Shown in pieces: positions 3,457 to 38,030 of a stretch of DNA of 64,000 nucleotides. The stretch is taken from NCBI GenBank assembly GCA_020072585.1, contig JAIQGL010000013.1, forward strand, positions 1-64,000, given 5' to 3'. Under the pieces are notes generated by a model, which had not been told where the DNA came from, ran no database searches, and saw nothing but the letters and a program-made list of their open reading frames with translations. The position numbers and the translations under genes are program-made. Positions within the stretch are counted from its first letter, which is position 1, and the number at the start of each line of letters is the position of its first letter. This stretch comes from Terriglobia bacterium (GTDB lineage Bacteria; Acidobacteriota; Terriglobia; Terriglobales; Acidobacteriaceae).

Positions 3457-3918
3457 GCGGCCCTGAAGGGCCGCTCTTTCACCACAAAGCCAACCACCAC
3501 AAAGCCAACCACCACAAAGACGACCAACCACGAAAGCCAAGCAAGCGCAAAGCCACCAACGAGCCCATCAACCCGACACCCGGCGCTTCGCCGGGTGTCT
3601 CTTTATTCGTGCAGAGGCGCTGCGAAAAGGAAGCCCGGCAGGGCTTCCGCGCGGCGGGTCTGCACGAATGGGTGCGGAGAGAATAAAGATACAAAGCGAT
3701 TTTCGAGAGAATTCCCTGAAGCAGCATGGCAGAGAAAGCGCTGTCGGGGTCCTCGAAGCTCCCTCGGCTTCGCTCGGGATTTCGCCTGCGGGCTCATACG
3801 CCCGCACAACGGCTCAACTTCGACTCCTCCTCAGTCGCGATGCGCTTCCTCGGAGTCGCTCAGGAAGACAGGGTTATAAGGGGGCTTTTCGCGGCCCTGA
3901 AGGGCCGCTCTTTCACCG
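3457..3918. repeat. Pair of direct repeats built on an 18-base palindrome
   Basis: The perfect palindrome GCGGCCCTGAAGGGCCGC occurs at 3457-3474 and at 3891-3908, each followed by CTCTTTCACC and preceded by a similar purine-rich GACAG...TTAAGGG/TTATAAGG leader. The 434 bases between the copies are not coding. It looks like two members of a dispersed non-coding repeat family. Confidence 0.6.
3575..3609 (+). terminator. Strong hairpin with a T-rich tail, terminator-like
   Basis: An 11-base-pair stem (GACACCCGGCG/CGCCGGGTGTC, 3575-3599) with a CTT loop is followed by TCTTTATT. The T tract is weak. No gene ends just upstream, so it may be part of a repeat rather than an active terminator. Confidence 0.4.
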
Positions 3919-11505: not shown

Positions 11506-11721
11506 AAGAATCCACCACGGAGACACGGAGGCACGGAGAAGAACTGTTTCTGATCTTGGCACAACGAGGTTCCGATGACTTTAGAAATAAGATGAGATAC
11601 GAGATTCGGAATTATCTTTTAGTTTTTAGACTGAATGTCTCGTGCGGATATGCGCATCGGTCTTCGGAGTTTCAGATGGAATGTTTTTCTCCGTGTCTCC
11701 GTGCCTCCGAGGTGGATTCTT
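11506..11721. repeat. Inverted array of period-8 repeats (CACGGAGA type)
   Basis: The left arm (11506-11541) reads AGAATCCACCACGGAGACAC and continues with ACGGAG words; the right arm (11685-11721) is its imperfect reverse complement, about 32 of 35 matching. Each arm is built of 8-base units ACGGAG(A/G)C. About 140 bases of unique, AT-richer sequence lie between. The right arm runs into the 3' end of ribF and supplies its last codons and stop. Confidence 0.75.
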
Positions 11722-27652: not shown

Positions 27653-30022
27653 TCAATCCGCCATCACTTCTTTGTTCTGCGGTGCGCGACGATTTTCCAG
27701 CACGTTGTTCAGTGTCTTTGAATATCGCCCCAGCGTTCCGGAGGTAAACAACGTATCATTCGCGGGAACAATCTGTACCAATCCCTCTGCGACTCCGGCA
27801 TTGCTGCGCTCAGCGGCGTTCACGTGCTGGTCATTGCCTGCCAGCAGCCCCAGACGCGAGAATTCATAGCCGGGCACCAGGCGCTGGATCTCATCGAGCA
27901 TGGCATACGGATCAAAAGGACTGAATCTGGGTTCAAGGTTATTTGCAGTGAGCCATACGGAATGCCGGTCCGCTTCACCGGACTGCGCTCCGCGGGTCTG
28001 GCCCATATCAGCCCGCACACCGCTGCCGAACGGCACCAGCCTGCGCACCTCAGTGCCCATGCGCTCCGCCACGCGAACAATGATTTCAAAATCACTCTTG
28101 ATGCCGGAGATGTCCCCGGCTTTCTTCAGCAATTGCAGATCGCCGCAGGTATTGGTGAAGGTGCCGGATTTTTCATAAGCCGATGCGGCCGGCAAAACCA
28201 CCTCCGCCAGCATGGCCGTCTCAGTAAGAAACAGTTCCTGGACCACGACAAAGGTATTTTGCAGTGCTGCCGGATCAAAGTTGTAATCGACCACCGGATT
28301 TGAACCAACCACGTAGAGAGCGGAGAGTTTCCCGGCCTTGGCGGCCTGCATCATCTCCTGCAGGGGCAGGCCCTTTGTCTTCGACAAGGAGCCCCACTCT
28401 TCGTTGTACTTGTGCGGCCCGTTGATGGCGACATAGCCCGGCAATAGATCAGGGTAGAGGCCCATATCCGCCGCGCCACGCGAGTTGGCGTAGTCGCCCA
28501 GGCAGATGAACTTTGCGCCGGAGGCGCTGCCGAACTTCACCAGTGCAGTAATATCTGCGCCGTTCAGCTCTGAACCGAAAATGATGACCAGATTTTTCTG
28601 GGCCTTCAATTCGTCGCGCAATTGTTTCAGCGCGTCATTGGAGCCACTGGCGCCTGTGAGCGTGCCGGCTGCGGCATCGTCTCCGTTGAGGAAAGCAACA
28701 AGTTTCCCTTCGCGGCCTTCCGGTATCTGCACAAAGCGCGCAGCCTGGCGCTGTAGCTTGATCGGCTGTGCGTTCACCACGTATAGCTTGCCCTGGTTCA
28801 GGCGGACATTGGTACGAATGTTCCAGGCCAGCAGCGGATGGCGCTCCGTGGGATTATTGCCAATCAGCAGGATCGCCGGGGCGCTGGCCACATCACGCAT
28901 AGTTGCTGTGATGTTTTCCTTTCCGGCGATGGCGCGGGCAAAGCCGGCGAAGTCCGCCGTGCGATGGTGGTCAATATTGTTCGTGCCCAGCACGGTGCGG
29001 GCAAATTTCTGGAGAAGATAATTTTCTTCGTTCGTGGTACGGTTGGACCCGATCACTCCAATAGACTGTCCGCCCTTGCTGTCGCGGATCTCGCGCAGAC
29101 GCTTGCCCACATGCTCGATGGCTTCTTCCCAGGTAGTGGGTGTGAGCTTGCCGTCTTTGCGGACCAGAGGCTGGCGCAGCCGGTCTTTGTGATCGAAATA
29201 ATCAAAGCCGTAGCGGCCCTTGATGCACAGAAAATCGCCATTGATGCCGCTTTTGTCCCGGTTATCGCCGCGCACAATGTCCATGCCGGTATCAGAGCGG
29301 CGCACGCCGAGCGTGGTCTTGCAGCCATCGCCGCAATGCGTGCAGATGGTGCCCACGTGCTTCATCTCCCACGGGCGGGTCTTGTAACGGTATGCGCCGG
29401 AAGTAAGGGCTCCAACGGGGCAAATGTCGATGCACATGCCACACTCTTCGCAATTCAGATGGTCGCCTTCATTGGGGGCGATCACGGAACTGGAGCCGCG
29501 GAGCTGCACGCCGAGTGCGGAGACATCCATCCCTTCGCCGCAGACGCGCACGCAGCGGTAGCAGAGAATGCAGCGCGGGCGATCAAAGAAGACAACAGGA
29601 GACCACTGCTGCTCCTCTTTGTGCAGCTTGCCTTCCATATAGCGCGATTCAGCCGCGCCGTACTTGAAGGTCATGTCCTGCAATTCGCATTCGCCACCGG
29701 CGTCGCATACGGGGCAGTCCAGCGGATGATTGCCCAGCAGAAGCTCGATCATCGATTTGCGCGCCTGGCGGATTTCATCCGTGTCAGTGGCCACGACCAT
29801 GCCATCGGTGATCGGCACTGTGCAGGCAGTCTGAAGCTTGGGCATCTTTTCAATGCGCACCAGACACATGCGGCATGCTGCCTGAAGGGAAAGCCCTGGG
29901 TAGTAGCAGAACGATGGGACTTCAATACCCACGGCTTTGCAGGCTTCAATCAGAAGAGTGCCTGCAGGCGCGGTGACCTGTTTGCCGTCGACGGTGATGG
30001 TTACGTTCTTAACTTCAGCCAT
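27653..30022 (-). CDS. nuoG: NADH-quinone oxidoreductase subunit G
   Basis: 789 residues. Electron-carrying subunit. The [2Fe-2S] domain has CYYPGLSLQAACRMC (about 39-53); HPLDCPVCDAGGEC supplies the His/Cys-ligated cluster; CILCYRCVRVC and CEECGMCIDICP the ferredoxin-type clusters; and CTHCGDGC with a later Cys in FLCIKGRYG an additional N7-type cluster. The C-terminal 500 residues form a molybdopterin-oxidoreductase-like domain. Upstream lies the 165-base gap with a large hairpin that separates it from the DinB gene. Confidence 0.95.
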   Translation of the reverse strand: MAEVKNVTITVDGKQVTAPAGTLLIEACKAVGIEVPSFCYYPGLSLQAACRMCLVRIEKMPKLQTACTVPITDGMVVATDTDEIRQARKSMIELLLGNHPLDCPVCDAGGECELQDMTFKYGAAESRYMEGKLHKEEQQWSPVVFFDRPRCILCYRCVRVCGEGMDVSALGVQLRGSSSVIAPNEGDHLNCEECGMCIDICPVGALTSGAYRYKTRPWEMKHVGTICTHCGDGCKTTLGVRRSDTGMDIVRGDNRDKSGINGDFLCIKGRYGFDYFDHKDRLRQPLVRKDGKLTPTTWEEAIEHVGKRLREIRDSKGGQSIGVIGSNRTTNEENYLLQKFARTVLGTNNIDHHRTADFAGFARAIAGKENITATMRDVASAPAILLIGNNPTERHPLLAWNIRTNVRLNQGKLYVVNAQPIKLQRQAARFVQIPEGREGKLVAFLNGDDAAAGTLTGASGSNDALKQLRDELKAQKNLVIIFGSELNGADITALVKFGSASGAKFICLGDYANSRGAADMGLYPDLLPGYVAINGPHKYNEEWGSLSKTKGLPLQEMMQAAKAGKLSALYVVGSNPVVDYNFDPAALQNTFVVVQELFLTETAMLAEVVLPAASAYEKSGTFTNTCGDLQLLKKAGDISGIKSDFEIIVRVAERMGTEVRRLVPFGSGVRADMGQTRGAQSGEADRHSVWLTANNLEPRFSPFDPYAMLDEIQRLVPGYEFSRLGLLAGNDQHVNAAERSNAGVAEGLVQIVPANDTLFTSGTLGRYSKTLNNVLENRRAPQNKEVMAD

Positions 30023-30068
30023 GTTTACCTAAGATCCAAACTTGATATACGTCTTCAACAGCTTCGCT

Positions 30069-30173
30069 GATTTTGGCAATTGGGTAAATTGGTAATTGAA
30101 AACCTGTGTTCCGGAAAGACTTTGTGTTTCCTTTCCAAATTACCCAATTACCAAATTACTCAATTACCAAATC
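30069..30173. repeat. Inverted repeat hairpin in the DinB-nuoG gap
   Basis: The left arm at 30069-30098 and right arm at 30145-30173 are near-perfect reverse complements (26 of about 30 positions), made of short TTGGTAA / TTGGGTAA words. The 46-base loop holds an additional TTACCCAATTACC copy. A transcript of the nuo operon would form a roughly 30-base-pair hairpin here. It resembles the repeats that enclose the two IVP genes but has no gene inside. Confidence 0.75.
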
Positions 30174-30186
30174 TTCCTTGCTCTCG

Positions 30187-30753
30187 CTAGGGCGTTGCAT
30201 CCATACCCTTGAGCGTGTTTCTAATCTCGTGAATCTGTGCCGCGTGCCGCTCGGCATGCTTGGCGATAATGATGGTCATTTCATAGGTGCTCACATTTCC
30301 CGCCGCCGGGTGCGGATGCGTTACCTCAGAAGTGCGAAGGTCTTCCGTGCTCTGCTCCACAAATTGAATCACGCTATTTCTCGTGCTCCGGAACTGAACA
30401 GCTGCCTCAGCAAGACTGGCAAAGCGTCCGCGTGGCTGCCCGCTCTCCGGAGATTGCATCTTGCGGCTTCGGTCGCCGATGACCTGAAGAAATACCTGTT
30501 CACGATTTGGCGCGTCAGCCTGCCTCGGCCTGCGGTCGCTGGTGATGAGCTTCAGCATGATTCCTTCAGCCGAGGTCAGATGCTCGACAGTATCAAGGAC
30601 AGACCAGGAGCCGGGGGACGGTCGCATGCGGCTTTGTTCATCGGAAACGCCAGCAAAGCTGCTCAAAAACTTTTCCTGGCTGGCGAGCAGAAGCGTCACC
30701 AGGAATTCCTTGTCAGAATTCGCGCCAGTCACCGGATTGTTCAGGGCGTTCAT
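30187..30753 (-). CDS. DinB-like metal-binding four-helix protein
   Basis: 188 residues. The helical-bundle pattern of the DinB/YfiT superfamily is clear: VLDTVEHLTSAE (first metal His) and KHAERHAAQIHEI (further His ligands). Members bind divalent metal and some are bacillithiol or maleylpyruvate transferases; this one's reaction is unknown. The start is 3 bases after the nuoF stop, so it is read within the nuo operon between nuoF and nuoG, although it is not a known complex I part. This may be an inserted passenger gene. Confidence 0.8.
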   Translation of the reverse strand: MNALNNPVTGANSDKEFLVTLLLASQEKFLSSFAGVSDEQSRMRPSPGSWSVLDTVEHLTSAEGIMLKLITSDRRPRQADAPNREQVFLQVIGDRSRKMQSPESGQPRGRFASLAEAAVQFRSTRNSVIQFVEQSTEDLRTSEVTHPHPAAGNVSTYEMTIIIAKHAERHAAQIHEIRNTLKGMDATP

Positions 30754-30756
30754 GGG

Positions 30757-32085
<1,329 letters not shown>

Positions 32086-32104
32086 TACCTTTCGTTTCTC
32101 AGTT

Positions 32105-32592
32105 GAAAATTGCCAACAATGCAAAATTGCCAAAGAATCCAAATTGCAGGATCATCTGCCCTTTTTCGCCGTTTGTCGGGACGCGGAGAATATGGCAGTC
32201 AGTTCCCGAGCCTCTTGCAACAAACCGTCCAGTCTTTCCTTTTTCATGATTTTCAGGTCGCAAAGCAGTTCAAGCCAAAAGACAGACTCATCAGCCTCTT
32301 CCACGACAACGCCGATCTTGGAGATAAAATCCGCTCTGGATCGCGCATGACAAGCAGAACGGTAATTGGCTCCAACAGAAGTGCCGCACCGCAGAAGTTG
32401 ATTGCCAATGGTCTGGGCTTCTTTCGTGCCAGGTAGTGCTTGGAATAAATGGATAATGCGAATCGCAAAATCTTTCGTTCGCGCTCTCAGCTTTTCCGTT
32501 CTGCTGTCCATCTCACTCCGTCTCAGAGCTCCACGCCGTTCTTGCCGTCCAATTTGGATTCTTTGGCAATTTTGGCAGTTCTGGCAATTCTC
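32105..32592. mobile_element. Inverted-repeat element enclosing IVP1 between nuoE and nuoF
   Basis: A perfect 25-base inverted repeat lies at 32122-32146 and 32550-32574, and the imperfect pairing extends to about 32105 and 32592. The arms are built of period-9 words (TTTGGCAAT type). Between them lies exactly one gene, the four-helix-bundle protein IVP1. The element fills the space from just after the nuoE stop (32594) to shortly before the nuoF start (32085). It resembles 23S rRNA intervening sequences, which are also an IVP gene inside an inverted repeat. Its mobility is inferred. Confidence 0.65.
32152..32511 (-). CDS. Four-helix-bundle protein, 23S rRNA intervening-sequence protein (IVP) family
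   Basis: 119 residues with the S23/IVP family pattern: RTKDFAIRIIHLFQALPGT, then QLLRCGTSVGANYRSACHARSRADFISKI and VVVEEADESVFWLELL. These are the four-helix bundle core with the conserved (S/C)xSVxANxxEA-like turn. It is over half identical to IVP2 at 33106-33462, ungapped. Family proteins occur in 23S rRNA intervening sequences and as scattered copies with unknown biochemical function; related bAvd proteins bind nucleic acid. Here it lies inside an inverted repeat in the nuo operon. Confidence 0.85.
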   Translation of the reverse strand: MDSRTEKLRARTKDFAIRIIHLFQALPGTKEAQTIGNQLLRCGTSVGANYRSACHARSRADFISKIGVVVEEADESVFWLELLCDLKIMKKERLDGLLQEARELTAIFSASRQTAKKGR

Positions 32593-32593
32593 T

Positions 32594-33070
32594 TCACCGC
32601 TTCTTCCTGTACCCCTCCAGCACCGCGTCCATCTTGTCGTTGGTTAAATTTTCGTGAAAATCGTAGTTCACCTGCACCGCCGGGGCCCAACTGCATGCGC
32701 CGATGCATTCCACTTCTTCCAGAGAAAAGGTCCCGTCCGCCGTGGTCTGTTTGTGACCGATGCCCAGCTTACTCTTGCAATGCTCAAGAATCTCCTCGCC
32801 GCCGCGCAGCATGCAGCTGATATTGGTGCATACCTGGACGTGATATTTGCCCATCGGCTTGGTGTGCAGCAGGGAGTAATAGCTGATCACGTTGCGGACT
32901 TCCAGCTCAGTCAGTTCGGTCTTTTTCGCCAGATGCGCGATTGCTTCGTCGCTCAGATAGCCCAGCTCATCCTGCGTGTAAAGCAGCATGGGAACCAGGA
33001 ACCCGCGCTTGGTCGGGTACTCCTTCATCTTTTCATCGAAAAATTTGTCGAGCTTGTCTGATATCACCAT
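32594..33070 (-). CDS. nuoE: NADH-quinone oxidoreductase subunit E
   Basis: 158 residues. The thioredoxin-like [2Fe-2S] subunit: cysteine ligands in VCTNISCML and ECIGACSWAP. EYPTKRGFLVPMLLYTQDELG is the usual N-terminal helix region. It is bracketed by the two IVP elements: IVP2 between nuoD and nuoE, IVP1 between nuoE and nuoF. Confidence 0.95.
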   Translation of the reverse strand: MVISDKLDKFFDEKMKEYPTKRGFLVPMLLYTQDELGYLSDEAIAHLAKKTELTELEVRNVISYYSLLHTKPMGKYHVQVCTNISCMLRGGEEILEHCKSKLGIGHKQTTADGTFSLEEVECIGACSWAPAVQVNYDFHENLTNDKMDAVLEGYRKKR

Positions 33071-33071
33071 G

Positions 33072-33513
33072 AGATTTCGAATTTAAAATTTCTAATTTTA
33101 AATTTTCAGTTCTTCCTGATCGTACTCGTGGCAGCAGTGAAAATCGCCGTTAATTGCCGGGCTTCTGTTAATAGAGGCTCTGATTTCTCCTTTTTCATTG
33201 TTCCCGATTCAATCAACAATTCGAGCCATAGAGCACTTTCGTCTGCTTCTTCCAGCACTACTGAAAGTCTGGAAAGAAACTCTGCACGCGACCTTGATCT
33301 GCATGCCGCCCGATAATTTGCAGCTACAGATGTTCCAGATCTCAATAACTGTTTTCCCATTACCTGCGCCTCGCCCGTTCGAGGCAAAGCGCGGAACAGT
33401 TTTACCACTCGTAACGCAAAATTCTTTGTTCGGTCCCTGAGTTCTTGCGTTCTTTCGTTCAAAATTTCTACCCAGGTCTGAATTTTTAAATTACAAATTC
33501 AAAATTTAAAATC
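33072..33513. mobile_element. AT-rich inverted-repeat element enclosing IVP2 between nuoD and nuoE
   Basis: The flanks at about 33072-33110 and 33475-33513 are imperfect reverse complements (roughly three quarters matching), built of AAATTT/AATTTAAA words and ending in AGATTT/AAATCT. They fill the gap between the nuoD stop (33519) and the nuoE start (33070) and enclose only IVP2. The arm sequence is different from that around IVP1, but the plan is the same. Confidence 0.6.
33106..33462 (-). CDS. Four-helix-bundle IVP-family protein, second copy
   Basis: 118 residues, a paralogue of IVP1: same length, ungapped, with RTKNFALRVVKLFRALPRT, QLLRSGTSVAANYRAACRSRSRAEFLSRL and LEEADESALWLELL. Its start is a TTG at 33462 (MNERTQEL...), with the stop 35 bases before nuoE. 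The arrangement of gene plus inverted flanks parallels the IVP1 unit two genes along. Function unknown. Confidence 0.85.
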   Translation of the reverse strand: MNERTQELRDRTKNFALRVVKLFRALPRTGEAQVMGKQLLRSGTSVAANYRAACRSRSRAEFLSRLSVVLEEADESALWLELLIESGTMKKEKSEPLLTEARQLTAIFTAATSTIRKN

Positions 33514-33518
33514 TGTTC

Positions 33519-34724
33519 CTACCGATCGATCTCCCCAAGAACGATATCTATACTTCCAATCGCCGCCACCACGTCGGCGATCAAGCGGCCTTCGCACATC
33601 TGAGGTAAAGCTTGAAGGTTGGCGTACGAAGGCGAGCGCATGTGTACACGCATCGGCTTGGCAGTGCCATCGCTCACAATGTAATAGCCCATCTCACCAC
33701 GTGGAGATTCAATCGCGTGGTATACCTCACCTGCCGGCACAGCAAAGCCTTCCGTAACAATCTTAAAGTGATAGATGAGGGCTTCCATCTGCGTCTTCAT
33801 CTTCTCGCGATCGGGAAGAACGATCTTCGGCGCATCGGCTTTGGTGGGACCGGAGGGCATGCCTTCCAGGGCCTGTTTGGCGATCTCGCGCGACTGGCGC
33901 AGCTCGGCAACGCGGCACAGATAGCGGGCCCATACGTCGCCTTCCTTCTGGACCGGCACCGAAAATTTGAAATTTTCATAACCGCAATAAGGCATATCGC
34001 GGCGGATATCAAAGTCCACGCCGCTGGCGCGAAGAGACGGGCCAGTGAGCCCGATGGCAAGGGCGTCGTCAGCGCTGATCTTGGCTACACCCTTCAAGCG
34101 ATCAATGAAGATAAAGTTGCCGGTCAGCAGGTTCTCGTATTCGTCAATTTTTTCCGGGAAGCGGTCAAGGAACTGTTTTACCTTTTCAAAAAAGCCGAGC
34201 GGAGGATCGAGCGCCAGCCCGCCAATGCGGAAGTACGAAGTCATCATGCGCTGGCCGCTGACCATCTCGTAAATGCGGAGCAGATCTTCGCGTTCACGGA
34301 AGCAATAGAGGAAGACCGACATTGCGCCGATGTCCATGGCGTGCGTCCCCAGCCAGACCAGATGCGAGCTGATGCGCTGGAGCTCAGCCAGCAGCACGCG
34401 CATCCATTGCGCGCGAGGCGGGATTTCCAGCCCCAGCAGTTTCTCCACGGCCATGACGTAGCAGAGGTTGTTGACCATGGGGCAGAGATAGTCAATGCGG
34501 TCCGTAAGCGGGACCACCTGCTGATAAAACTTGGCTTCGCAGGTCTTCTCAATGCCGGTATGGAGGAATCCGATGTCCGGCATCATCCGGACAATCGTTT
34601 CGCCGTCGATCTCCAACAGCAGGCGCAACACACCGTGCGTGGACGGGTGCTGCGGGCCCATGTTGAGGATCATGCTCTTATCTTCAGTAGCGTCCAGCAC
34701 CGGATTGGGGTTTAAGTGGCCCAT
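33519..34724 (-). CDS. nuoD: NADH-quinone oxidoreductase subunit D
   Basis: 401 residues, the 49-kDa quinone-site subunit. NMGPQHPSTHGVLRLLLEIDGE, PDIGFLHTGIEKTCE and GFAVPAGEVYHAIESPRGEMGYYIVSD are conserved, ending LIADVVAAIGSIDIVLGEIDR. Its ATG overlaps the nuoC stop (TAATG). NuoC and NuoD are separate, not fused as in enterobacteria. Confidence 0.96.
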   Translation of the reverse strand: MGHLNPNPVLDATEDKSMILNMGPQHPSTHGVLRLLLEIDGETIVRMMPDIGFLHTGIEKTCEAKFYQQVVPLTDRIDYLCPMVNNLCYVMAVEKLLGLEIPPRAQWMRVLLAELQRISSHLVWLGTHAMDIGAMSVFLYCFREREDLLRIYEMVSGQRMMTSYFRIGGLALDPPLGFFEKVKQFLDRFPEKIDEYENLLTGNFIFIDRLKGVAKISADDALAIGLTGPSLRASGVDFDIRRDMPYCGYENFKFSVPVQKEGDVWARYLCRVAELRQSREIAKQALEGMPSGPTKADAPKIVLPDREKMKTQMEALIYHFKIVTEGFAVPAGEVYHAIESPRGEMGYYIVSDGTAKPMRVHMRSPSYANLQALPQMCEGRLIADVVAAIGSIDIVLGEIDR

Positions 34725-35215
34725 TAACGATATCCCTCCACCGGATAGTCCTTGCGCAGGGGATGGCCTTCCCAGTCTTCCGGCAGCATGATACGGCGCA
34801 GGTATGGGTGGCCCAGAAAACGTATGCCAAACAGATCAAACAGCTCGCGCTCAAAGAAATTGGCTGAAGGCCATATCGAAACGATGGATTCCACCGATGC
34901 GTCATCACCGGACAGCCGGACTTTCAGACGTACACGCTCTTTCCGTTTCATGGAGAGTAGGTGATAGGCGAGTTCAAACCGCGGTTCGCGCGGATAGTAA
35001 TCGGCGCAGGTCACGTCAGAGAGGAAGTCTGTTAATCCTTGAGCTTTCAGACGAGCACAGGCTTCGCGGATGGCTTCGCGGGCAATGAAAATTGTCAGTT
35101 CGTCGCGGTCAAATCGGGCGCCCTGGACGGCATCGGCCCGCCAGGCGAGTAGATCGGCGACCATGGGGCGATCTTTTAGTTGTTCAATATCGGTAATGGC
35201 AGGCGCGAGTGGCAT
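34724..35215 (-). CDS. nuoC: NADH-quinone oxidoreductase subunit C
   Basis: 163 residues. The 30-kDa-type subunit: FLSDVTCADYYPREPRFELAYHL, SIWPSANFFERELFDLFGIRF and the signature LPEDWEGHPLRKDYPVEGYR at the C-terminus. It begins 2 bases after the nuoA stop, where nuoB would normally be placed. Confidence 0.95.
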   Translation of the reverse strand: MPLAPAITDIEQLKDRPMVADLLAWRADAVQGARFDRDELTIFIAREAIREACARLKAQGLTDFLSDVTCADYYPREPRFELAYHLLSMKRKERVRLKVRLSGDDASVESIVSIWPSANFFERELFDLFGIRFLGHPYLRRIMLPEDWEGHPLRKDYPVEGYR

Positions 35216-35217
35216 TT

Positions 35218-35610
35218 TCAGTTTCCACCCTTCTCAGAGGCATTCCAGTCCAGTATGCCCTTCTTCCATATATAGAAGAAGCCGACGAGCACCAGACCGA
35301 TGTAAACCATCATCTCCCAGAAGCCAAACATCTTGAGTTCGCGGGCAATCACGGCCCAGGGATAGAGGAAGACCGCTTCCACGTCAAACAGGATAAAGAG
35401 CATGCCAACCAGATAGAACTTGACGCTAAAGCGCTGCTGGGCATCGCCTGTGGGCTCAATGCCGCATTCGTAAGCGGTATTTTTTGCGCGACTCCACTTG
35501 TGCTTGCCAAGCAGATGAGAAAGGGTGACCATGATGGTAGCCAGGGCAATGGCGACGATCACCTGAATCAGCAACGGAATATAATGAGCAAAGTAGCTGT
35601 TTTCCGGCAT
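35218..35610 (-). CDS. nuoA: NADH-quinone oxidoreductase subunit A
   Basis: 130 residues from the ATG at 35610 (MPENSYFAHYIPLL). An in-frame GTG at 35652 would lie at the predicted transcription start and is rejected. Three membrane helices with YECGIEPTGDAQQRFSVKFY and ILFDVEAVFLYPWAV, the conserved acidic loop. First gene of the operon, behind a strong promoter. Confidence 0.95.
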   Translation of the reverse strand: MPENSYFAHYIPLLIQVIVAIALATIMVTLSHLLGKHKWSRAKNTAYECGIEPTGDAQQRFSVKFYLVGMLFILFDVEAVFLYPWAVIARELKMFGFWEMMVYIGLVLVGFFYIWKKGILDWNASEKGGN

Positions 35611-35655
35611 GCAAGGCCTGTACAGAAAGAGCAACTGCAATATGCCAAACACTCG

Positions 35656-35684
35656 AATGTAATTTCCATTCGCGGGAGTGTCAA
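35656..35684 (-). promoter_or_regulatory. Sigma-70 promoter of the nuo operon
   Basis: TTGACA (35684-35679) and TACATT (35661-35656) are spaced by 17 bases on the minus strand. The likely transcription start is near 35649, leaving about 40 bases before the nuoA ATG at 35610. Confidence 0.7.
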
Positions 35685-35790
35685 GCCCTTGACTTTGAAC
35701 GGAGTTAATGATTTCTAATCAGCATCTGACCGGGGCTTGACAGCGCAGAAAAAAGTTCGATCGTCCACGGCATATTTTTTCATTCTTATT

Positions 35791-36372
35791 ATGACGATTT
35801 TCGGATTCAACACAGATGTAAAGCAGGCTGACGTGGTGTACCACGTGCAGAGTGAGGCTCGCCAAAACGACCTGTTGTTGCAGACGCTGATTTTTGTGAA
35901 AGGCCAATGCGTGGGCAAGCAGGCATTCTCTTACGCGCATGAGCTGGCGCATCCCGGCTTTTCCACGGAAGCCATGCATGAATTGTTGAAGACGCAGCAC
36001 AAGGCCGTGATTGACGCAATCCAGCAGGGCCAGCTGCATACCGTGTTGGGTGGCGGAGCAGAGGTGCAGGACGTGGGCGGATCCGGGCTCTCTTTGCAGT
36101 GGAAGGCGCCGGCCTCAGTCGGCGATGCTGCCGATCTTCCGGTGAGTTTTCAGGTTCTCGATTTAGGCCAACCGGCCAAAGGCGCGGAGATTGTGGTGCG
36201 CGGAGTGATTCCATCCGATGGTCTGGAACTGGCGCGTGGTATTGCCGATGCAACCGGCGCAGTAGGATTATCGATTGCGATCACGGAAGATGTGCTCAGC
36301 CGGGGCGCGGTGATTGTGCAGGCCACGCACCAGGGAAAATCGGTGACGCGGAAGTTCAGAGTGAAGAGATAA
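35791..36372 (+). CDS. Hypothetical protein
   Basis: 193 residues from the ATG at 35791; an in-frame TTG at 35737 would add 18 basic/hydrophobic residues. The N-terminal third (about 30-90) is helical with FVKGQCVGKQAFSYAHELAHPGFSTEAMHELLKTQHKAVID. The C-terminal part (about 110-193) looks like an immunoglobulin-like beta fold (LPVSFQVLDLGQPAKGAEIVVRGVIPSDG and GAVGLSIAI), as in carboxypeptidase-regulatory-like domains. No recognised family and no clear export signal. It is divergent from the nuo operon. Confidence 0.6.
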   Translation: MTIFGFNTDVKQADVVYHVQSEARQNDLLLQTLIFVKGQCVGKQAFSYAHELAHPGFSTEAMHELLKTQHKAVIDAIQQGQLHTVLGGGAEVQDVGGSGLSLQWKAPASVGDAADLPVSFQVLDLGQPAKGAEIVVRGVIPSDGLELARGIADATGAVGLSIAITEDVLSRGAVIVQATHQGKSVTRKFRVKR

Positions 36373-36444
36373 AAGCCGTTGCTTGCTCAAACAGCGTTTG
36401 CAGGTCAGCAAGAGTTTCCGCGGTAAGACTTTTCAATGAATTGT

Positions 36445-37470
36445 TCAGCGGCCTTTGCCCTTCTTGATCGCGCTCAGGCCAAGCCGTTTTTCTACCAGCG
36501 GCCACCAGTCATTCATGGAATTAATCTCCCAATCACGCGCATTTTGCCGCGTGATGGAGGGAGGCGCAGGGACAAGCTGGTTGAGGCGATCAAATATCAG
36601 GAGCCTTTCTTCCACGTTAGCGTGAGGGAAAAGGTTGAGCAGGGTCAATGCATCACGCTGGCGGGAATCACGCAGGACAGTTTCAAGCGCCGCCCGATGA
36701 TACGCGCTTCCGGTATCGCTAAAGGAAAAATCCAGTAGCGCCTGTTTGAACACGGCGCTTGAGTCCTCAAAGTATGGAGGTGAGAGCGTGCCATCGGCAG
36801 CAATGTGGGCAGCGGCGCCCGCGGGGACCAGTGATTGCCTGTAGATATGGCTCAAATCCACCCAGCCTGTAAATACTCTGAGCTCGCCTCGGCCATCACG
36901 TTCAATCTTCAAGGTATATTCGCAGCCCAGGTCAATCGCACGGGCCGCGGGCGTATCAACAACAAAAAGTCCGGGTGGCGCTGAGATATGCGCGTGAATG
37001 AAGCCATAGCGCAATGAGAGCCTCTGGCGGTCCTGCCGCGACTCAGTCAGGCTCACCAGTGAATCACCCGCAACTTCTATCTCGCCGATCTTGCCGGCGC
37101 GGAGGTGAACAGTTGAATCGTGGTTGGTTGCCAGCCATTGACCGGGAAGGAGCTGCTGGACCTTCAATTTTTTACCGGCAAGTTCAGGTGCGCCGCTTAC
37201 AGTGCGCGCCTCCCAGTCAGAGGAAGAGATTGCGGGAGGCGCCATGGCAATCCAGGTGGCAAACAGAACGGCAGCGACTGATGCGGCGGCAACAGGGACC
37301 ATCCAATGCTGGCGCAGAAACGCCGTGCACCGGGCCAGCAGGGAAGGCCGGGGGACGGGACGAAAATCGAGCGTGCTTTCAGCCATGCGCAACGGCGCCA
37401 GCAGCTCTTCCAGCCGTGAGATATCTGGATCAGACGCGCCGCTTCGGTCCCACAAATACGGTTCGTTCAT
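36445..37470 (-). CDS. FecR-domain membrane protein, putative anti-sigma partner
   Basis: 341 residues. A cytoplasmic N-terminal 50 residues, one membrane helix (about 57-75), then a FecR-like beta domain: EARTVSGAPEL, VHLRAGKIGEIEVAGDSLVSLTES and FVVDTPAARAIDLGCEYTLKI. It overlaps the sigma-factor gene by 4 bases, so the two are translationally coupled. Such proteins sense a periplasmic signal and hold the ECF sigma factor at the membrane. Confidence 0.8.
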   Translation of the reverse strand: MNEPYLWDRSGASDPDISRLEELLAPLRMAESTLDFRPVPRPSLLARCTAFLRQHWMVPVAAASVAAVLFATWIAMAPPAISSSDWEARTVSGAPELAGKKLKVQQLLPGQWLATNHDSTVHLRAGKIGEIEVAGDSLVSLTESRQDRQRLSLRYGFIHAHISAPPGLFVVDTPAARAIDLGCEYTLKIERDGRGELRVFTGWVDLSHIYRQSLVPAGAAAHIAADGTLSPPYFEDSSAVFKQALLDFSFSDTGSAYHRAALETVLRDSRQRDALTLLNLFPHANVEERLLIFDRLNQLVPAPPSITRQNARDWEINSMNDWWPLVEKRLGLSAIKKGKGR

Positions 37471-38030
37471 CGTTGCACACCTTTCTCGAGAGCTTCGCGC
37501 AGCAGCTCCATGCCGCGATGCAGGTTCACGCGCACCGAGCCATGGCCCAATCCGGTGCGCTCGGCGATCTCCGGGCCGGTCATGCCCTCCACAAGACGAA
37601 GCACCAGTGTTTCGCGGTATGCCTCCGGCAGGCCTTGAATCACTTCGAGCACGGTTACAGCATCAATCCGCGCGGGTGCGCCAGGAGAGCTGCTGGCATG
37701 GTTCTCCGTCAGCTCCGTGGATTCCAAGCGGTCGCGATAAAAATCCGCTGCACGGTTGCGTGCGATCATGGCCACCCAGCTACCGAAGGCCGCAGGCTCG
37801 CGCAGGTCCTTCAGCTTGCGCAAGGCAGAGAGAAAAACTTCCTGCACCAGGTCTTCGACTTCCGCGGGAGGGATGCGCGATAAAAGCATGCCGTGGACCA
37901 TGCGCGCAAACTTTCGGTACAGCTCACCAAATGCCCCCTGATCGCCCTGCTGGGCCGCGACGACCAGATCGCGCACCTCATCCGCGGCTGCATTCATTGC
38001 ACTCTCGGGTGAGTCGATCATGCGGAGCAT
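37467..38030 (-). CDS. ECF-type RNA polymerase sigma factor
   Basis: 187 residues; the ATG at 38030 is used, although an ATG 33 bases later (MNAAADEV) is possible. Sigma region 2 is clear: GAFGELYRKFARMVHGMLLSRIP, EDLVQEVFLSALRKL and FGSWVAMIARNRAADFYR; region 4 has LPEAYRETLVLRLVEGMTGPEIAERTGLGHGSVRVNLHRGMELLRE. It directs transcription of an unknown regulon. Partner: the FecR-like gene just downstream. Confidence 0.9.
   Translation of the reverse strand: MLRMIDSPESAMNAAADEVRDLVVAAQQGDQGAFGELYRKFARMVHGMLLSRIPPAEVEDLVQEVFLSALRKLKDLREPAAFGSWVAMIARNRAADFYRDRLESTELTENHASSSPGAPARIDAVTVLEVIQGLPEAYRETLVLRLVEGMTGPEIAERTGLGHGSVRVNLHRGMELLREALEKGVQR

Follow-up and report, generated by a model that had tools for sequence, protein, structure and literature searches.

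The nuo operon of a bacterium of the class Terriglobia (Acidobacteriota) raises the question of what two small genes, each enclosed by its own inverted repeat, represent in adjacent gaps between its genes. The locus lies in a window of 64,000 nucleotides, by which we mean the whole stretch of DNA that was analysed. The encoded proteins belong to the IVP/S23 family, whose function is given as not known in the accessible text of PMC4990558. In the same partial text, the intervening sequence (IVS) of Coxiella burnetii is 428 nt long and holds an S23/IVP ORF and terminal inverted repeats; as many as three heptamers in tandem, together with a degenerate one, precede the ORF (PMC4990558). An earlier note on this DNA had read the two genes as members of an IVS-like element class that can enter intercistronic gaps, and that might process or stabilise the nuo message at the RNA level or be a passive mobile unit. 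Here, the observation is confirmed and the interpretation is partly supported. Beyond that note, we found that the repeat arms are tandem arrays, that the unit of the array matches the encoded protein, that GxxExxY genes have the same plan, and that gene-free derivatives occur.

The nuo operon is on the minus strand of the window. The host genes are nuoD (33519-34724), nuoE (32594-33070) and nuoF (30757-32085, with the ATG at about 32085 as counted from the ORF), all three named from gene order and an earlier finding. IVP2 (33106-33462, minus strand) lies in the nuoD-nuoE gap, downstream of nuoD, and encodes a protein of 118 aa with a TTG start. IVP1 (32152-32511, minus strand), which encodes 119 aa, lies in the nuoE-nuoF gap, upstream of nuoF, and nuoE is thus flanked by both elements. 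Both products are four-helix-bundle proteins. In profile searches, IVP1 and IVP2 matched TIGR02436 at 1.2e-24 and 5e-24, with 86.6 and 84.6 bits against a curated cut-off of 24, and PF05635, the sole Pfam match of either protein, at 4.5e-16 and 1.8e-16. For IVP2, the search for solved structures gave one relative, 2rld, an entry with five chains. The source genome has five IVP matches.

The arms are described here in the sense of the genes, on the minus strand. The upstream arm of IVP1 (32550-32592) is an inverted array of AATTGCCAR-type units with a period of about 9, and the downstream arm spans 32105-32146. The perfect 25-nt repeat reported earlier, 32122-32146 with 32550-32574, is present, and with gaps allowed the alignment reaches 32105-32146/32550-32592, scoring 59. 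The upstream arm of IVP2 (33478-33514) is an AT-rich array of ATTTTRAA-type units with a best period of 7; its complementarity to the downstream arm (33072-33109) is imperfect, as had been noted, and the alignment scores 34. Since control windows (n = 587) have a median of 19 and a 99th percentile of 28, both repeats are above chance, that of IVP2 by a smaller margin. The elements occupy the whole gaps, one from the nuoE stop at 32594 to the nuoF ATG at about 32085 and the other from the nuoE ATG at 33070 to the nuoD stop at 33519. Profile matches, alignments and gap coordinates therefore agree with the arrangement described before, in which two IVP genes in adjacent nuo gaps, each in its own inverted repeat, fill the space between two nuo genes.

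Inverted arms are a general property of IVP genes. In the source genome and 40 relatives, 100 IVP matches were found, in 31 of the 41 genomes. After exclusion of 13 fragments or weak rows, 87 matches from 30 genomes remained, and the 300-nt upstream flank of each was aligned to its reverse-complemented downstream flank of the same length. The median score was 40 for IVP genes, compared with 18 for mispaired flanks (n = 1500) and 19 for the control windows; the control 99th percentile of 28 was exceeded by 72 of 87 IVP genes and by 47 of 1500 mispaired flanks. A second set comprised 79 named loci from 14 phylum-level groups, of which two, L166 and L168, had flanks too short to be used. Arms were found at 70 of the remaining 77 (mispairs 80/1500, controls 7/424), or at 65 of 72 when the five loci shared with the first set are left out. 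The third set was taken from 15 genomes of other phyla, chosen for holding an IVP; from 30 loci of each family, drawn from more rows, 29 IVP and 28 GxxExxY loci were used after fragments had been omitted. Arms are present at 23/29 IVP genes (cross 3/400) and at 22/28 GxxExxY genes (cross 15/400). Seven of these 29 IVP loci repeat the second set, and without them arms are found at 17/22. A clear repeat is absent at 15/87, 7/77 and 6/29 IVP genes of the three partly overlapping sets. The check for inverted repeats at other IVP copies, which the earlier note had suggested, thus found them in each of these sets.

We also scanned 377 kb of genome G015, 400 kb of G000 and the window for repeats with a score of at least 40, a threshold above the repeats of IVP2 and of locus L001 (both 34). 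Three IVP genes lie inside repeats found by this unbiased scan. The other enclosed contents are mostly ORFs that we take to be RAYT-like from their HxH motif, together with a few unnamed ORFs and gene-free hairpins. At several places in G015 and in contig C1 of G000, RAYT-like ORFs are flanked by long inverted REP-like repeats. The 1.1-Mb genome of a patescibacterium (G054) has 12 IVP matches, four of which lie within 4.3 kb (C19:8534-12855). A search of phages for IVP gave one record, which is unannotated, and 25 plasmid records carry an IVP, 11 of them from Nostoc.

Both arms are made up of short degenerate units (7-10 nt) that are repeated in tandem, and the two arrays are inverted relative to each other. 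IVP genes were divided by bit score into class A, the high-scoring ones, and class B, the class of the window genes. A period of 7 is found in 39 of 42 class A genes and in 6 of 30 class B genes (Fisher p 1.5e-10); genes whose repeats are weak (13 in class A, 2 in class B) were omitted. IVP2 is among the six; the class B genes of G039 and G040, on long branches set apart from the others, also have period 7. All 21 class A IVPs of the third set are new, and 16 have arms, with period 7 in 15 of the 16. The arms are in-register copies of each other: the identity of the held-out half was.814, compared with.643 in neighbouring registers; in 53 of 67 elements it exceeded the neighbouring value and in 12 it fell below, 40 gapped alignments having been skipped. 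The motif points inward in class A (39 vs 2, with 1 tie) and in class B (66 vs 5, with 24 ties). In the upstream arm, G exceeds C in 119 of 137 elements and C exceeds G in 13.

GxxExxY genes (PF13366, PDDEXK-like), which came to our notice through one in the nuo operon of the Bacteroidota locus L155, are built on the same plan. Arms are present at all 30 loci examined, out of 60 match rows; the cross count of 61/400 is high because the unit is common to GxxExxY loci. This unit, C[AG]CN[ACG]A[GT] followed by 1-3 nt, occurs in at least two copies in 27/30 GxxExxY upstream arms and in 2/137 IVP arms. IVP class A, IVP class B and GxxExxY proteins are each encoded between arms whose unit corresponds to the protein.

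Inverted arrays are also found without a gene. In the same nuo operon as IVP1 and IVP2, a hairpin of AATTACC-type units (30072-30171, arms 30072-30098/30145-30171) lies upstream of nuoG, between nuoG and the ORF 30187-30753, and is probably a derivative that has no ORF. Another gene-free hairpin (11506-11721, arms 11506-11544/11683-11721) has CACGGAG-type arms, which belong to the unit family of GxxExxY elements. On another contig of the source genome, the same scan over 400 kb detected two inverted array pairs, one of which encloses an IVP gene. The ORF 30187-30753, between nuoF and nuoG, has a homologue at the same place in five relatives, G002, G004, G006, G007 and G023 (33% identity); it is presumably DinB-like. 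The window also has a tandem repeat of period 15/30 at 3480-3560.

We read 39 nuo loci and found at least one IVP in 13, all in the family of the window's organism (13/24 there, 0/15 outside). The D-E gap contains ten of the genes, one of which is split into two pieces; E-F has four, F-G has two, and one follows nuoG. In relatives, a nuo gap can be empty or contain a hairpin with no gene, or the gene lies in a different gap; the hairpins were read by eye. The sister genomes G004 and G006 adjoin the window's genome in the tree; G006 has the D-E gene and G004 has an empty junction. In G004, G007 and G008, nuoD and nuoE overlap as TAATG. A 25-aa IVP remnant lies beyond nuoC in G008, and in the nuoE-nuoF gap of G002 (L069) a decayed remnant lies within AATTGCC-type arms, as read by eye. 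The comparison of relatives proposed earlier thus gave empty gaps and also genes in different gaps; together with the repeats at other copies, it supports the idea that elements of an IVS-like class enter the gaps between cistrons.

On the best IVP tree, four changes are needed for D-E, three for E-F and two for F-G. The starred branches force fewer (one, one and two), so that a single origin for D-E or for E-F is allowed. Between G000 and G006, the synonymous codon identity is.37 for IVP (null.34), compared with.61 for nuoD (null.45) and.61 for nuoE (null.47). In four of five species pairs, same-gap IVPs are near the codon-usage expectation, unlike nuoD and nuoE; the pair G012/G019 is uninformative because nuoD is also near its null. 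The IVP protein is conserved while its synonymous sites are saturated, and the comparison with nuoD and nuoE means that the copies predate the species split or change much faster. In two Bacteroidota loci, L151 and L155, an IVP lies directly 3' of a nuoD homologue. Homing to nuo across phyla is not claimed here, as both group with the Bacteroidota locus L166, outside the acidobacterial nuo rows, in a quick and poorly resolved tree. The nuo operon of L155 has a class A-like IVP between nuoC and nuoD, a class B IVP after nuoD, and the GxxExxY gene further on; the next genes are those that we take to be nuoH, nuoI and nuoJ.

Two other gaps were compared. In the fumC-fabH gap, read by eye, the IVPs of G000 and G007 have opposite orientations, each 3' of the co-directional gene, and G004, G006 and G008 (L291, L293 and L297) have gene-free hairpins with GxxExxY-like units. 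In the dprA-topA gap, 8 of 10 readable genomes have a class A IVP, with arms that vary and, in six of the eight, score more than 28; the gap has no IVP in G005 and G009, and G003 was unreadable. This IVP looks like a long resident. Comparison of its copies in G004 and G006 (L278/L279) shows a mosaic, in which identity is.55 in the upstream arm and.77-.88 over the initial two thirds of the ORF, rising to.92-.97 in the last third and the downstream arm, with flanks at about.80-1.00, as after a partial replacement. A search by eye for target-site duplications at nuoD-nuoE, dprA-topA and fumC-fabH gave none that could be called from the empty sites, and neither an excision product nor a transposition event was observed.

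The orientation of the genes is biased. Of 161 IVP genes, counted whether or not their arms are clear, those in tandem gaps number 84 in sense and 9 in antisense, with 26 in convergent and 13 in divergent gaps. For GxxExxY genes, the corresponding counts of sense and antisense are 14 vs 2 and 11 vs 0. Mirror-image arms give no cause for such a bias, and expression of the ORF or RNA-coupled insertion should therefore matter. The bias also speaks against a purely passive mobile unit, the other possibility that had been raised.

We consider it rather probable (about 0.6) that these are mini-elements like RAYT/REPIN, with one ORF inside inverted arrays of 7-10-nt units. The encoded protein would recognise the arms of its own element, in the form of a DNA hairpin or duplex, and the pair of protein and arms would spread and be maintained much like RAYT and REPIN. 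Copies would establish themselves downstream of a host gene and in the same orientation, so that read-through transcription can express the ORF, and copies that lose the ORF would persist as gene-free hairpins. Movement would be an active process with a DNA-level route. To our knowledge, IVP has no known catalytic residues or catalysis, and it would presumably act with a catalytic partner. Several results weigh against this reading: no clear target-site duplication, excision product or transposition came to light, IVP genes without a clear repeat occur in all three sets, the dprA-topA copy looks like a long resident, the starred branches force a single change for D-E, the count correlations given below leave room for a mobiliser in trans, and most other ORFs in the repeats of the unbiased scan were RAYT-like, with IVP2 itself below its threshold.

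The elements could also be passengers that are moved by a host RAYT (Y1 transposase) or by a reverse transcriptase (RT), which we regard as doubtful. The IVP count correlates with the counts of Y1 transposase (rho.69), GxxExxY (.61) and RT (.44) and with genome size (.49), so that a mobiliser acting in trans is possible; RAYT-like ORFs of the same genomes also lie between inverted repeats, and PF05635 is similar to Avd, which accompanies RTs in diversity-generating retroelements (DGRs) according to the available parts of PMC10053308 and PMC8934634. However, an RT match is absent in 15 of 31 IVP-bearing genomes, one of which has 9 IVP matches, and a Y1 match in three of the 31, one of which has 4 IVP matches and is rated 98% complete, although draft genomes may miss such genes. 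Dependence on RT was rejected for this reason, and dependence on Y1 as well, though the counts correlate. The arms, by eye, are tandem arrays and not REP palindromes. The RNA-level role that the earlier note had offered, in which the arms form an mRNA stem, RNase III cuts it and the nuo message is processed or stabilised, is unlikely. This plan is that of the 23S rRNA IVS, which is excised by RNase III according to the accessible part of PMC4990558; the elements lie in the sense of transcription, and the folds of the two window elements are more stable than those of 100 shuffles (z -4.8 and -4.1). The stable folds, however, are explained by the repeat alone. A selected RNA stem would give an excess of G.U-type over A.C-type mismatches between the arms, and 137 elements have 111 and 108, respectively, in a count that had no positive control and in which mismatches may date from array formation. 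With no G.U excess, conserved RNA pairing is unsupported, and it was rejected. The arm sequences also vary between lineages, close relatives are without the elements, only 17 of the 100 IVP matches are in nuo, and Rfam gave no match, including none to rRNA, in 10000-36000.

Vertical descent of ordinary resident genes with a cellular role, in which repeated loss would give the appearance of mobility, is quite improbable. The IVP in the dprA-topA gap of eight genomes, the amino acid conservation with saturated synonymous sites, and the clustering of nuo-located IVPs in trees are in agreement with it. On the other hand, loss would demand exact excision at the three TAATG overlaps, the orientations in the fumC-fabH gap are opposite, the saturated sites lie beside less diverged flanks, and the occupied gaps differ between species. 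It is very improbable that the hairpins came first and that IVP ORFs entered the loops of pre-existing repeat hairpins, as could be imagined from the gene-free hairpins of such units in nuo gaps and from the Coxiella IVS, which sits in helix 45 of the 23S rRNA (PMC4990558, seen in part). Unit length depends on the IVP subfamily even among genes of a single genome, and GxxExxY genes use a different unit again; such protein-specific units argue against insertion into random host hairpins, and pre-existing hairpins are disfavoured as the target.

The preferred reading, mini-elements like RAYT/REPIN, has several implications. If IVP genes carry arms matched to their protein, the function of the protein becomes testable as binding of its own arms. 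Many small intergenic hairpins and 7-9-nt arrays would be readable as relics of such elements, GxxExxY would join the same scheme, and rRNA intervening sequences would be linked to REPIN-like elements. We propose only tentatively, at slightly less than even odds, that one small protein, of IVP class A, of IVP class B or of the nuclease-like GxxExxY family, with protein-specific inverted arrays of 7-10-nt units defines a class of mini-elements in many bacterial phyla, inserted in sense at the 3' side of genes without a known transposase, with the rRNA IVS as a special case.

The architecture is real and general, and it is absent from the descriptions in the open literature searched, which covered titles and abstract openings, with subscription papers outside the scope; the part seen of PMC8700078 merely lists four helix bundle genes. 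When compared with classical insertion sequences, the elements have no transposase within them, as Pfam gives PF05635 alone. Cyanobacterial STRR sequences are intergenic heptamer repeats. TAACTGA heptamer repeats have been described in intergenic DNA of Beggiatoaceae, in the portion available of PMC4679880. Both share 7-nt units in intergenic DNA with the arms described here, which differ in being inverted pairs around a gene of the matching family. The IVS of 23S rRNA shares the protein family, the position of the ORF within terminal inverted repeats and a similar size. However, the window elements lie between nuo genes and not in rRNA, their unit follows the IVP subfamily, gene-free derivatives exist, and there is no sign of conserved RNA pairing. 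The likeness of PF05635 to Avd of DGRs is seen in both sequence and structure alignment, as far as the accessible text goes (PMC10053308); the elements differ from DGRs in that the three RT matches of the source genome are on contigs C23, C61 and C63, whereas the window is on C47, that reading of the ORFs listed at 28000-38000 revealed no RT, and that 15 IVP-bearing genomes are without an RT match. The closest analogue in plan is RAYT/REPIN, small extragenic elements with hairpin-forming inverted repeats, gene-free copies and repeats tied to the protein family (PMC3116915, consulted in part). Intergenic pairs of inverted repeats with gene-free copies are found in both systems, whereas the proteins here are IVP or GxxExxY instead of a Y1 (HUH) transposase, and the arms are tandem 7-10-nt arrays instead of REP palindromes.
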